NCBI GenBank assembly: GCA_016788185.1 | Contig: JAEUTF010000219.1 | Span: 1-38,266, forward strand | DNA: 38,266 bases | Direction: 5' to 3' | Origin: Bacteroidia bacterium | GTDB taxonomy: Bacteria > Bacteroidota > Bacteroidia > AKYH767-A > OLB10 | Shown here: one piece after another, positions 1,321-6,406 of the stretch | Layout: the number at the start of each line of letters is the position of its first letter | How positions within the stretch are numbered: position 1 is the stretch's first letter | Made by a program: the position numbers and the translations under genes | Notes under the pieces: generated by a model | The model's input: the letters and a program-made list of their open reading frames with translations, nothing else | Told to the model about the DNA's origin: nothing | Database searches by the model: none

Positions 1321-2796
1321 TCAATAGGCACGGGCGAATATCACCCGTTGGGTGGAAGGATTCCCAGTGAGGATACACTTACCCTGTTCCTGTTTATTGT
1401 GGAGCGGAATACACCGAATGGTAGCTTTGGTCATTTCTTTGATCTTCTGCTCTGTTTCAGAGGTGCCATCCCAGTGCGCATAAATGAAGCCCCCTTTCTC
1501 ATCCAGAATTTTATTGAATTCCTCCCAGGAGTCGGCCCGGTACGTATTTTCTTCGCGGAAATCGAGGGCCTTTTTGTAAATATTGTCCTGAATTTGATTC
1601 AGCAGATGCTCAACTTTCAGGTCGAGATCCGTAATCTGATAGACCGACTTCTCCCGGGTATCACGGCGGGCCACTTCCACGGTCCCGTTTTCCATGTCTC
1701 TGGGCCCGATGGCTATTCGAACCGGAACCCCCTTCAATTCGTATTCGGCAAATTTCCAGCCCGGCTTGTGGGTATCCCGGTTATCGTATTTGACGGTAAT
1801 GCCTTTTGCTTCGAGTGATTTTTTCACCGGAGCTATAAAAGCATTCAACTGATCGAGCTGATCAAAATTTTTGTAGATCGGTACGATCACTACCTGGATC
1901 GGCGCCAGACGGGGCGGAAGCACCAGGCCATTGTCGTCGCTGTGTGACATTATCAAGGCTCCCATCAGTCGTGTGGAAACACCCCATGAAGTAGCCCAGA
2001 CATACTCCTGTTTTCCCTCTTTTGAGGTGAACTTCACATCAAATGCCTTCGCGAAATTCTGACCCAGGAAATGAGAAGTTCCGGCCTGCAGGGCCTTCCC
2101 ATCCTGCATCAAGGCTTCAATACACATCGTATCGAGCGCTCCGGCAAACCGCTCATTGGCTGATTTAGAGCCCTTTATAACGGGAAGGGCCAACACCTCT
2201 TCCGCAAAAGTGGCATAGACATCCAACATTCTTCTCGTCTCCTCCATGGCCTCCTCGGCGGTGGCATGGGCGGTGTGCCCTTCCTGCCAGAGGAACTCGG
2301 CCGTCCGAAGGAACAAACGTGTACGCATTTCCCAGCGAACCACGTTGGCCCATTGGTTGATCAGCAGCGGGAGGTCACGATACGACTGAATCCAGCCGCG
2401 GTAGGTATTCCAGATGATGGTTTCGGAGGTGGGTCGTACAATGAGTTCTTCCTCGAGTTTGGCATCTTCATCCACCACGATTCCGCCACCGTTCGGATCA
2501 TTCTTCAGCCTGTAGTGGGTGACCACGGCACACTCCTTGGCAAAGCCCTCTACGTGGCTGGCTTCTTTGGAGAAAAATGATTTTGGGATGAAGAGCGGAA
2601 AATAGGCGTTCACATGGCCTGTATCTTTAAACATCTTGTCCAGATGCTGCTGCATCCGTTCCCAGATGGCGTACCCATACGGTTTGATCACCATACAGCC
2701 TCTCACAGCGGAGTTTTCCGCCAGGTCGGCTTTGATCACCAGGTCCTGGTACCACTGGGAATAATTTTCACTTCTCGGAGTTAATTGTTCGCTCAT
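1321..2796 (-). CDS. proS: Prolyl-tRNA synthetase (short, archaeal/eukaryal type)
   Basis: Charges tRNA-Pro with proline using ATP in the cytoplasm. The 491-aa protein shows class II synthetase signatures: the proline-pocket segment RPTSET near residue 122, motif 2 ([15 protein letters not shown]) near 154-168, and motif 3 ([10 protein letters not shown]) near 289. An anticodon-binding domain and a C-terminal extension ending in a conserved-type Tyr (ARAY) follow; there is no YbaK editing insertion. This is the short ProS form usual in Bacteroidota. The ATG at 2794-2796 is chosen over one 57 bases upstream because homologues begin close to the PRSENYS segment. A -7-like AAACTTTG (2813-2820, minus strand) lies 16 nt upstream, one base off TAnnTTTG. 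Confidence 0.95.
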
Positions 2797-2951: not shown

Positions 2952-4793
2952 ATGAAAAATGTAACTCTCGCGCTTGTTTCAGCTGCCATCAGCATCAGTT
3001 CCTGTTCATCAGGGCGCATGGCCAGCCGCGATTACGATGATGTTTATTATTCAAACCGTGATGCCATCGAAGAGGACTACAACCGCAACAGCGGCCGGGA
3101 TCAGGAGCCATCACGCAGCAGGACAGAAGATTACACTCCTTCCCGCGAGCAAGGCAACGACAACAATTACCGACCATCGGATGATCAACAGGGCGGAGAA
3201 AATCAGCCGGCTGAAAACGACCGTTTCCGCTATGATTCCAGCCAACCGGATTATTCTACTTCCGAAAACAGGGAAGGCCAGGATGGCAAAACGTATGTCA
3301 CCAACAATTACTATTACGACGATGATGACTATTACGATTATGCCTACTCGGCACGCATCCGTCGTTTTTACCACCCGGTAGGCTGGAGTTATTACGATCC
3401 TTTCTACACCAATCTTTACTGGTACGACTACAATCCTTACTCCTGGGGCGTGAGTTTATACTGCACCTATAACTGGTGGCGCCCCACCTTTTACACCGGC
3501 TGGGGATGGAACAGCGGCTGGAGCGTCGGCTTTGGATACGGTCCTTCCTGGGGATGGGGGAATCCCTACGGTGGCTGGGGCAACCCTTACGGCGGCTGGG
3601 GATGGAACGGAGGTTACTGGAACGGATACAACCATGGCTACTGGAACGGGTATAACCAGGGTTATTGGAACGGGTATTATGCCGGTTTGTATAACGGTAC
3701 TTTTAACCCCTATTACTTCAACAGCATGGACTCCTACAGTTACTATTACGGACCCCGCAACGGACGGAACAATGTGGCCAGCAATGTGGCCGGCGGAAGA
3801 AGTATCGGCGAAGTGTACGGACGCAGCCTGGCAGCCGAACAACCGAAGAGTCCGCGCAATGAAAGCGCATTTGATGGAAGTAGCGCCATCGGCCGTCCTA
3901 AAAGAGAGATCAAACCGCTCGGCAATGAACTAGCCTCACCGGGAAAAGGTAGTGAATCATCCGGTCGTCCGAAGTTCACCCGTGAAAACCCCAAAGGCGT
4001 CAGGGACAACAGTTCTGAAACCGTTACGCCACGCAACAACAATCCCAAAGCCGGTGGTTCAGAGGGTGTGAATCCAGGGAGCAACAACCCCCGGAACAAT
4101 GCAGGAGATGCGGTGAACCCGCGCTCTGCAGATCCGAAGGCTACCAATCCCCGCAACAACGGCGATAACTATACGCCCCGCAGTACTGATCCGAAAAGCA
4201 ATCCCCGTTCAAACGACGATGTTTATACTCCGAGGCAGAATGAACCCAAAACAAACAATCCCCGGAGCAACGATGGGTACACGCCACGTGAGAGTAATCC
4301 ACGGAACAATCCGCCGGCGAACAACGATAACTACACCCCACGGAATAACAATACACCCAAAGGGAATGCGACACCCAGGAGCAACGATGGCTATACGCCA
4401 AGAAACAATCCGGGCATGAGTACTCCGCGCTCCAACGAAAACTATGCTCCACGTGAAAACGGACCTTCCAAATCATCTCCCCGTAATTCGCGCAATGACA
4501 ATTACACTCCCCGTCAGGACAATTATTCCATCCCGAACTCCGGCAGGCCAAAAAATGAGCGCAACGAATACAATGCACCTTCAGGCCCCACCCGTAATTC
4601 GGAACCCAGGGAAATACGCCAGCCCCGTGGTAACAACTCCGGCCCACGCAGCTTTGAAACACCACGTTCGAACGGCGGCAGTGAAATCAGGAGCAACAGC
4701 CGCAGTAACAGCAGCCCTTCCTTCTCTGCTCCTTCCAACAGCCGCCCTTCCGGCGGAAGCGGAGATAACAGCGGCGGACGCAACAGGCGATAA
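2952..4793 (+). CDS. Lipoprotein with aromatic Gly/Tyr/Trp zone and Asn/Pro/Arg-rich repetitive tail
   Basis: A 613-aa exported protein of unknown function. A short signal ends in the lipobox ISSC, so Cys18 should be lipidated. Residues about 20-115 are polar and acidic. Residues about 116-267 are extremely aromatic, first [13 protein letters not shown], then tandem WGNPYGG and GYWNGYN units. The remaining ~345 residues are low-complexity, basic and rich in Asn, Pro, Arg and Ser, with an imperfect repeat close to [10 protein letters not shown]. No catalytic domain is visible. The composition predicts disorder with sticky aromatic patches, suiting a surface or periplasmic matrix, adhesive or wall-binding role, but this is inference. 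It is divergent from proS. The start at 2952 rests on the Shine-Dalgarno sequence and on the signal peptide. Confidence 0.85.
3550..3690 (+). repeat. Intragenic tandem repeats coding WGNPYGG and GYWNGYN units
   Basis: Within the lipoprotein gene, near-identical short units recur: two copies of WGNPYGG followed by three copies of a GYWNGYN-like heptapeptide. The DNA repeats are close enough to permit slippage, so copy number could vary between strains. Confidence 0.7.
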
Positions 4794-4915: not shown

Positions 4916-6406
4916 ATGAAAACCGGATTTTCAATACTTCTGCTTCTCACAGTGTCCATCACACGTCCTGCTTCAGCTCAAACGGATGCCGATGTCCTGC
5001 GCTTCAGCATGCTGAACTATGGAAGTACCGCCCGTTCTATGGGTATGGGCAATTCATTTGCCGGACTGGGTGCCGATTTCAGTTCACTCGCAAGTAACCC
5101 TGCCGGTATTGCTCTTTATAAAAGGTCTGAATTCAGCTTCAGTCCGATGTTTTCCAACCGCTCCATCGATGCCAGTTTTATCGGTAAAGATGTAAATGAC
5201 AACTTCTTTAAGTTTGCTTTTGGAAACCTGGGCATGGTCTGGGCCACTTCAAGAGAAAAGAGTTCATCCCCCTGGAAAGGTTTTGCTTTCGGACTCGGCT
5301 ATAACCGGACCAATGATTTCAGCGGCCGTTACACCGCAGAAGCCGGGAACGGAAAAAATTCTCTGCTTGACAATTATCTGGAACAGGTGGAGGGAGTGGA
5401 TCCGGACGATATCCCCAATTACTTCCCCTTTGATGTTGATCTCGCCTGGCAAACTTTTCTCATTGACACGTTTACTTCCGGAGGAGATGTTTACTATTAC
5501 AGTGCCTTGCCCTTTGCAGGTGCGTTGCAACGAAAATCGCTCGAGACGCGCGGTGGACAAGGCGAATGGGATTTCACATTCGGAGGCAATTACAACGAAA
5601 TGCTGTACCTGGGTTTCACGCTGGGTATAGCGTCCATTCGCTATGAAGAAGAAAGCACCTGGGAAGAAGAGGATAATATGGACACCATACCTTATTTTGA
5701 AAAATACCAGTTGAATCAAAATCTGAAGACCAGCGGAAGCGGTATCAATTTTAAATTCGGCGCCATTTTCCGGCCTGCAGACCCCATCCGCATCGGCGTA
5801 GCCATTCACAGCCCTACCTGGTATACGCTGGTGGATGAATATTCCACCAGTATCCGTACCGACCTTCAGGATGGGAATATCCGTGATTACAGCGGACCGG
5901 TTTTCATCCCATTCGATTACAACGTCACCACCCCCTTTCGTGTATTAACCAGCCTGGCACTCATCATGGGGAAACATGGTGCCTTTAATGTCGACTATGA
6001 GTTCCTCGATTACAGCCATGGAAGAATACGCCCGGTAGACCGGAGTTTCTCGTCTGATTTCAATCCCGTAAACAATGCACTGAGAAAAAAATATACGGCC
6101 TCTCACAACCTGCGGGCCGGCATCGAATTCCGTGCTGATCAGTTGCGCTTCAGAGCAGGAGGATTCTATTCCACTTCGCCCTTTGTGACAGCCCTTCGGG
6201 CTTCGGATGAAACCGACCTTAGCCGTTACGGATTCACAGGCGGTATAGGATTCAGAGAGAAAAAGTACTTTATCGATGCAGCCTATTCCTGGTCACAGCA
6301 GGGATCATACCTTCAGCCGTACACCCTGAACAATCAAACAACAGAAGGTATCACCTTCAAACAAACCGATAACCGTGTATTGATTACGGTTGGATTTTTA
6401 TTTTAA
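4916..6406 (+). CDS. OmpP1/FadL-family outer-membrane transport protein
   Basis: A 496-aa outer-membrane beta-barrel of the FadL/TodX/OmpP1 group, which passes hydrophobic molecules such as fatty acids or aromatics across the outer membrane. A signal peptide is cleaved around Ala21 (PASA/QTDAD). The N-terminal plug-like segment with ARSMGMGNSFAGLGAD and ASNPAGIA (about residues 40-68) is the hallmark of the family. Alternating amphipathic strands follow to the last residues VLITVGFLF, ending in Phe as outer-membrane barrels do for BAM recognition. Bacteroidota relatives are often labelled 'hemin receptor', but the substrate cannot be read from the sequence. It starts 122 nt after the lipoprotein gene, behind the inverted repeat. 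Confidence 0.85.
   Translation: MKTGFSILLLLTVSITRPASAQTDADVLRFSMLNYGSTARSMGMGNSFAGLGADFSSLASNPAGIALYKRSEFSFSPMFSNRSIDASFIGKDVNDNFFKFAFGNLGMVWATSREKSSSPWKGFAFGLGYNRTNDFSGRYTAEAGNGKNSLLDNYLEQVEGVDPDDIPNYFPFDVDLAWQTFLIDTFTSGGDVYYYSALPFAGALQRKSLETRGGQGEWDFTFGGNYNEMLYLGFTLGIASIRYEEESTWEEEDNMDTIPYFEKYQLNQNLKTSGSGINFKFGAIFRPADPIRIGVAIHSPTWYTLVDEYSTSIRTDLQDGNIRDYSGPVFIPFDYNVTTPFRVLTSLALIMGKHGAFNVDYEFLDYSHGRIRPVDRSFSSDFNPVNNALRKKYTASHNLRAGIEFRADQLRFRAGGFYSTSPFVTALRASDETDLSRYGFTGGIGFREKKYFIDAAYSWSQQGSYLQPYTLNNQTTEGITFKQTDNRVLITVGFLF

Follow-up and report, generated by a model that had tools for sequence, protein, structure and literature searches.

A predicted lipoprotein family of Bacteroidota encoded between the genes for prolyl-tRNA synthetase and a FadL-type barrel

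What is the function of a lipoprotein whose middle consists largely of Tyr, Trp, Gly and Asn and whose long tail is basic? Such a protein is encoded in the stretch of Bacteroidia bacterium DNA analysed here (38,266 nucleotides of contig JAEUTF010000219.1, referred to as the window). A preliminary description, made from the letters alone, took it for a self-associating, adhesive or polymer-binding surface material, possibly phase-separating. That description overlooked a locus with a FadL-type barrel gene which is found across Bacteroidota, and a reading based on a conserved core, a paired barrel and a bare tail is more informative than one based on surface material.

The lipoprotein gene and its product

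The gene starts with an ATG at 2952 behind a GGAGG at 2940–2944, so that the open reading frame, its frame and its start are correct. Its product carries a signal peptide with the lipobox Cys that defines a bacterial lipoprotein. The features of the locus are:

1321–2796, minus strand: proS, prolyl-tRNA synthetase gene, the divergent neighbour in every locus examined
2797–2951, no strand: intergenic region shared by proS and the lipoprotein gene, with promoter-like conserved blocks (alignment of six relatives)
2952–4793, plus strand: lipoprotein gene, 613 amino acids, single copy in the genome (sequence, genome search)
2952–3005, plus strand: lipoprotein signal peptide, lipobox ISSC, lipidated Cys18 (sequence)
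3036–3053, plus strand: N-terminal arm DDVYYS, residues 29–34 (50-member alignment)
3261–3491, plus strand: conserved aromatic core, residues 104–180 (profile, identity to relatives)
3492–3689, plus strand: Trp/Gly/Tyr/Asn repeats including GYWNGYN units (25–52% identity to relatives within the order)
3690–3761, plus strand: second conserved block, residues 247–270 (84%, 71% and 57% identity at genus, family and order level)
3762–4790, plus strand: basic Asn/Pro/Arg/Ser tail, residues 271–613, RR at the end (13% identity at order level)
4916–6406, plus strand: FadL/Toluene_X-family outer-membrane barrel, 496 amino acids (Pfam PF03349, 37.9 bits, cut-off 29.7)

Tyr, Gly, Asn and Trp make up 56% of residues 112–299, and residues 300–613 contain 18% Asn, 14% Ser, 14% Pro and 12% Arg, with a net charge of +19. 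The richest 100-residue stretch holds 36 Tyr and Trp residues, against 13 in the runner-up among the 24 open frames of the window longer than 250 amino acids. The aromatic middle and basic Asn/Pro/Arg-rich tail on a lipid anchor were thus described correctly. So was the layout as not that of an enzyme: nothing enzyme-like was found, and Pfam gave no match to the full protein or to residues 1–300 of the 50 members. NCBIfam returned four matches to the full lipoprotein, all far under cut-off, and scattered weak ones among the 50 members, each in at most three of them. The window holds no Rfam elements, and the PDB no convincing solved relative of the core (ybiA, 0.048). No stable globular fold was predicted, as the same description had anticipated, AlphaFold2 giving a pLDDT of 48.1 and a pTM of 0.20 for residues 1–300 (50 sequences). 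The phrase "built of repeats", however, was overstated. GYWNGYN-type units exist, but Tandem Repeats Finder reported just 3555–3601 (21 bp × 2.2) and 3612–3677 (24 bp × 2.8), about 110 bp in total.

Searches for homologs did uncover a family. The lipoprotein query (P0001) matched 45 of 61 related genomes and the core profile (A3) 48 of 61. Nine loci are those of MAGs filed as Sphingobacteriales, Bacteroidales, Chitinophagales and Flavobacteriales, plus Chryseobacterium gwangjuense; the Sphingobacteriales MAG locus shares its contig with L003, and L031, also on the contig of L003, was left out. The mean identity of the core to that of the window was 78% within the genus (3 members compared), 67% within the family (10), 65% within the order (9) and 61% in Bacteroidales (3), while that of the barely alignable tail dropped from 37% to 7% over the same range of relatives. 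Since the core is conserved and the tail diverges, the middle of the lipoprotein is not generic low complexity; that label had hidden the non-repetitive core (residues 104–180) and the N-terminal arm. In the 50-member alignment D29 and D30 of the arm are at least 90% conserved and Y32 is invariant. The DDVYY-type arm sits 9–14 residues past the lipid Cys across members, and a variable linker separates it from the aromatic core in the window lipoprotein. Protein length ranges from 558 to 675 amino acids among species of one genus, mostly through the tail, which supports the preliminary description on this point. The clearest repeat expansion in the family was seen in a Bacteroidales MAG (L034:3659–6265; 869 residues), with near-perfect tail repeats of the units NKPVNPANNDNRVSPTN and NNSSRTPASNSTTTTPS in several copies each.

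In a phylum-wide sample the core profile matched at least 5 of 395 genomes, with at most 14 candidates scored per genome and absences therefore soft; so few matches point to strong divergence of the core in other families. In other families of the class a Tyr/Trp/Gly/Asn-rich protein is encoded directly upstream of the barrel in 28 of 29 loci, a count made by composition or motif that includes L096 and L098 (no arm motif) and L080, L087, L088 and L099 (short or broken frames). Most of these proteins possess a D[DG].Y arm, and a basic end rich in Gly and Arg is common among them. This shows that the family, as predicted from its sequences, continues in diverged form beyond the reach of the core profile. 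Not counted as members were L049 and L052, where the barrel lies at a contig end with no upstream gene, and L055, which has no recognisable core. In the latter a small lipoprotein-like frame between proS and the barrel (L055:2222–2737, complement-strand coordinates) is a minimal version that lacks the aromatic core and keeps a lipobox, GDDAY and a tail rich in Pro and Lys. A literature search found no description of this lipoprotein family, and gave no support to a supposed link to the Cytophaga cellulose cluster chu_1276–1280. The family is an unnamed one, which many Bacteroidota carry between the prolyl-tRNA synthetase and FadL-type barrel genes.

Gene order and the adjacent barrel

The gene at 1321–2796, which we take to be proS from its sequence, is found upstream in divergent orientation in all 50 members (38 + 12). 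Every locus examined has a prolyl-tRNA synthetase gene and, divergent from it, a gene for a protein whose tail is rich in Pro. Within 2797–2951, blocks nearly identical in several of the six relatives aligned (CTTTACAAAGTTTGGCA.. and ACAAAATTGG..ACCGCACAT) are probably two divergent promoters, a role suggested by the alignment.

On the 3' side, 46 loci have enough DNA to look for the barrel gene (L016, L032, L033 and L035, with fewer than 50 bases downstream, being excluded), and in 44 of them it comes next on the same strand, after a gap of −4 to 254 bp (median 64). In the window the gap is 122 bp and co-transcription of the barrel gene (4916–6406) with the lipoprotein gene is probable. The two exceptions are L034, with its barrel at another place in the genome, and L036, a Chitinophagales MAG in which the lipoprotein is present and no barrel match was found in the genome. 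In three Bacteroidales MAGs, L034 among them, the barrel match is located away from the lipoprotein, and the surroundings of one such unlinked barrel (L067) contain no lipoprotein of this kind. Among the 61 related genomes the barrel was found in 56, and on the same contig and strand for 46 of the 48 core matches; the remaining two are G015, with the lipoprotein gene at a contig end, and G037, with a 129-amino-acid core frame and no barrel match. At the level of the class the barrel profile matched at least 96 of the 98 genomes listed, with at most four candidates scored per genome and absences soft.

Does this gene order reflect a physical pairing? An essential neighbour such as proS can preserve gene order without interaction, and the linkage to the barrel is not absolute, as L036 and the three Bacteroidales MAGs demonstrate. 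The lipoprotein might accordingly be an envelope linker independent of the barrel, its basic tail binding peptidoglycan or another anionic polymer and its neighbourhood being a fossil order kept by proS. The composition of the Pro/Arg/Ser/Asn tail is in keeping with this, since the last 150 residues carry a net positive charge in all 50 members (L032 and L035 being cut by a contig end), and so are the occurrence of the lipoprotein without a barrel in L036 or unlinked to one in Bacteroidales, and a proS neighbour that is more constant than the barrel. We nevertheless consider it doubtful: a barrel gene is kept directly downstream in nearly all loci, and over 41 loci the pairwise distances of core and barrel remain correlated once proS is accounted for (partial r 0.36, a value reached in 4 of 2000 permutations of the labels). 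The corresponding partial correlation of lipoprotein and proS is 0.25, and the permutation test leaves some shared ancestry in.

The product of 4916–6406 is itself readily classified. It scores above the PF03349 cut-off and has the N-terminal hatch of FadL/Toluene_X barrels, and its AlphaFold2 model (pLDDT 86) is a confident FadL-type barrel with this hatch. The structures most similar to the model were CymD (Z 34.5), FadL (~32) and BamG (~31), followed by a type IX secretion system (T9SS) translocon chain (~25); TodX was also among the matches (CymD, FadL and TodX, Z 31–34.5). Conservation averages 0.75 in the hatch against 0.60 in the barrel part. Antibody matches of the barrel in the PDB were due to chance.

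Predicted membrane side and sequon depletion of the tail

The available text of the BAM study (PMC12578637) takes at least two acidic residues among the six that follow the Cys as the mark of surface lipoproteins. A lipobox is present in 41 of the 50 members (40 by regular expression, L005, with NISC, by eye), and the other nine have an ordinary signal peptide without lipobox Cys. The acidic signal, a rule of thumb, was found in 0 of 40 lipidated members of this set, 36 of which have no acidic residue at all in these positions, and in 0 of 24 lipidated members of a second set. The control, SusD of relatives, had it in 5 of 9 proteins by script and 6 of 9 after the misplaced Cys of L100 was read by eye, and all nine had at least one acidic residue after the Cys. 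No T9SS C-terminal sorting domain occurred among the NCBIfam matches obtained with the full protein up to an E of 1. The missing export signal, the nine signal peptides of non-lipid type and the lack of a T9SS domain together predict that the lipoprotein is probably on the periplasmic side.

These results weigh against the surface exposure assumed in the preliminary description. A material displayed outside and self-associating through aromatic repeats would agree with the aromatic, Gly- and Asn-rich composition, with the failure to predict a fold and with tail lengths and repeat numbers that differ between species, and there is a Tyr/Gly/Asn-rich structure on the outside of Bacteroidota in loop EL3 of BamA (PMC12578637, in the text available). 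Yet a free-form adhesive needs no strongly conserved core, and its display would have to dispense with both the acidic signal shown by most SusD of relatives and a T9SS domain model, and to accommodate the nine members with ordinary signal peptides. We regard surface material as improbable, and a partner of the barrel inside the envelope as more likely than a sticky substance outside.

The tail was further analysed for O-glycosylation sites. The sequon of Bacteroidota is D-[ST]-[AILMTV] according to the available part of PMC8550257; the corresponding part of PMC12871550 states that about half of noncytoplasmic proteins contain it, with enrichment mainly in Bacteroidota, and that Glu in place of Asp is not tolerated in B. 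fragilis. Among 43 tails of the first set, from which seven near-identical members had been left out, a single sequon was observed versus 17.7 expected from 20-residue shuffles. The reversed motif occurred 19 times (17.6 expected), E-[ST]-[AILMTV] was in excess (31 observed, 19.0 expected), and D[ST] without the third residue of the sequon was more mildly depleted (38 observed, 59 expected). In a second set of 25 further proteins, excluding L072 (upstream gene of another kind) and L075–L077 (duplicates of L059, L058 and L061), the second halves contained no sequon against 5.0 expected, whereas the whole proteins showed no depletion (15 observed, 11.8 expected). Because composition differs along the protein, local shuffles and a Fisher test conditioning on neighbours were preferred to whole-protein shuffles. 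This test, run with the same exclusions, gave, with significance inflated by sequence relatedness as in all these statistics, an odds ratio of 0.08 (p=0.00046) for both sets, p=0.008 for 37 first-set representatives and a non-significant p=0.23 for the second set alone. The ProS and OMP controls carry little weight, conserved positions dominating them. A less strict sequon would include DSS at 95 of the window lipoprotein. The Ser/Thr-rich tail seems, by these counts, to be kept bare of O-glycans.

Depletion that is strongest in the tail is also what would be expected if glycans blocked passage through a pore. RcsF, a proteobacterial stress sensor, is a lipoprotein threaded through a barrel, and by analogy the disordered tail could pass through the lumen of the co-encoded FadL-type barrel to be shown outside, the lipid staying in the membrane. 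Barrels of this type, however, have an N-terminal hatch, and since the hatch is here the better conserved part, we think such threading very unlikely.

A putative barrel partner and known systems

Our leading reading, put forward tentatively, is that the protein belongs to an ancient family of Bacteroidota lipoproteins, mostly disordered and located in the outer membrane, which are partners of the specific, adjacent FadL-family barrel. A core that is conserved yet unfolded alone suggests folding upon a partner, for which the barrel encoded alongside is the natural candidate. The lipid would anchor the lipoprotein to the outer membrane, with the inner leaflet as the most likely location; the DDVYY arm may, together with the aromatic core, dock at the periplasmic side of the barrel or at its N-terminal hatch, and fold only there; and the long, basic, presumably unglycosylated tail could span the periplasm, for example to peptidoglycan. 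It is the physical interaction, the membrane side and the ligand of the tail that we infer here.

Should lipoprotein and barrel assemble into a complex, a very widespread component of the outer membrane in Bacteroidota would still lack an assignment, given a barrel so common in the class and an upstream gene of the lipoprotein kind in nearly every locus of the best-scoring families checked. Having neither a Pfam nor an NCBIfam model, the lipoprotein is new to the curated families. Its tail would offer a natural example of an exported, Ser/Thr-rich segment avoiding the general O-glycosylation of the phylum, which makes directly testable what O-glycosylation would harm.

Among known FadL-family systems, FadL, TodX and CymD (PF03349) resemble the barrel in its predicted fold and in the N-terminal hatch, where an NPAG motif is conserved; we know of no such lipoprotein adjoining the FadL system of E. 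coli. PorV of the type IX secretion system is a FadL-family relative (PMC12578637, text available). The likeness extends to T9SS translocon chains among the structural matches and to a weak PorV-family NCBIfam match, but the barrel reaches 34.9 bits, under the family cut-off of 90, and its structural score is below those with FadL or BamG.

BamG can be ruled out as the identity of the barrel, since neither the protein nor profile A1 matched a BamG chain in a PDB search up to an E of 1. The genome has its own BamG (L042:1294–2565), which matches solved BamG at 4.8e-50, and the two proteins share the fold alone. Within L042:719–3220 this BamG is found directly before a presumed LptC-like protein and after what we take to be a pantothenate-kinase-like ORF. 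A bolder proposal, which we hold to be possible but rather doubtful, is that besides BamG and PorV this is a third FadL-family barrel acting as an envelope machine, with the disordered lipoprotein as its dedicated subunit, the Tyr-rich core folding on the barrel and the tail actively kept free of O-glycans for binding to, or threading through, something where glycans would be an obstacle.

The closest precedent is the BamG–BamH pair. Solved structures of BAM complexes show the lipoprotein BamH docked through its conserved N-terminus on BamG, a FadL-family barrel, and bamG2 and bamH2 make up a putative operon, as described in the available portions of PMC12578637 and PMC12611786. In a PDB search up to an E of 5, core profile A3 picked up no BAM chain. 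BamH has a fold and is exposed at the surface, unlike the window lipoprotein with neither a predicted fold nor an export signal, and a precedent that is itself a surface lipoprotein would, by analogy, argue against a periplasmic partner. As in BamG–BamH (Bt4367/Bt4306, Fjoh_1412/Fjoh_0823), nevertheless, the locus combines a FadL-family barrel with a lipoprotein bearing a conserved N-terminal arm.
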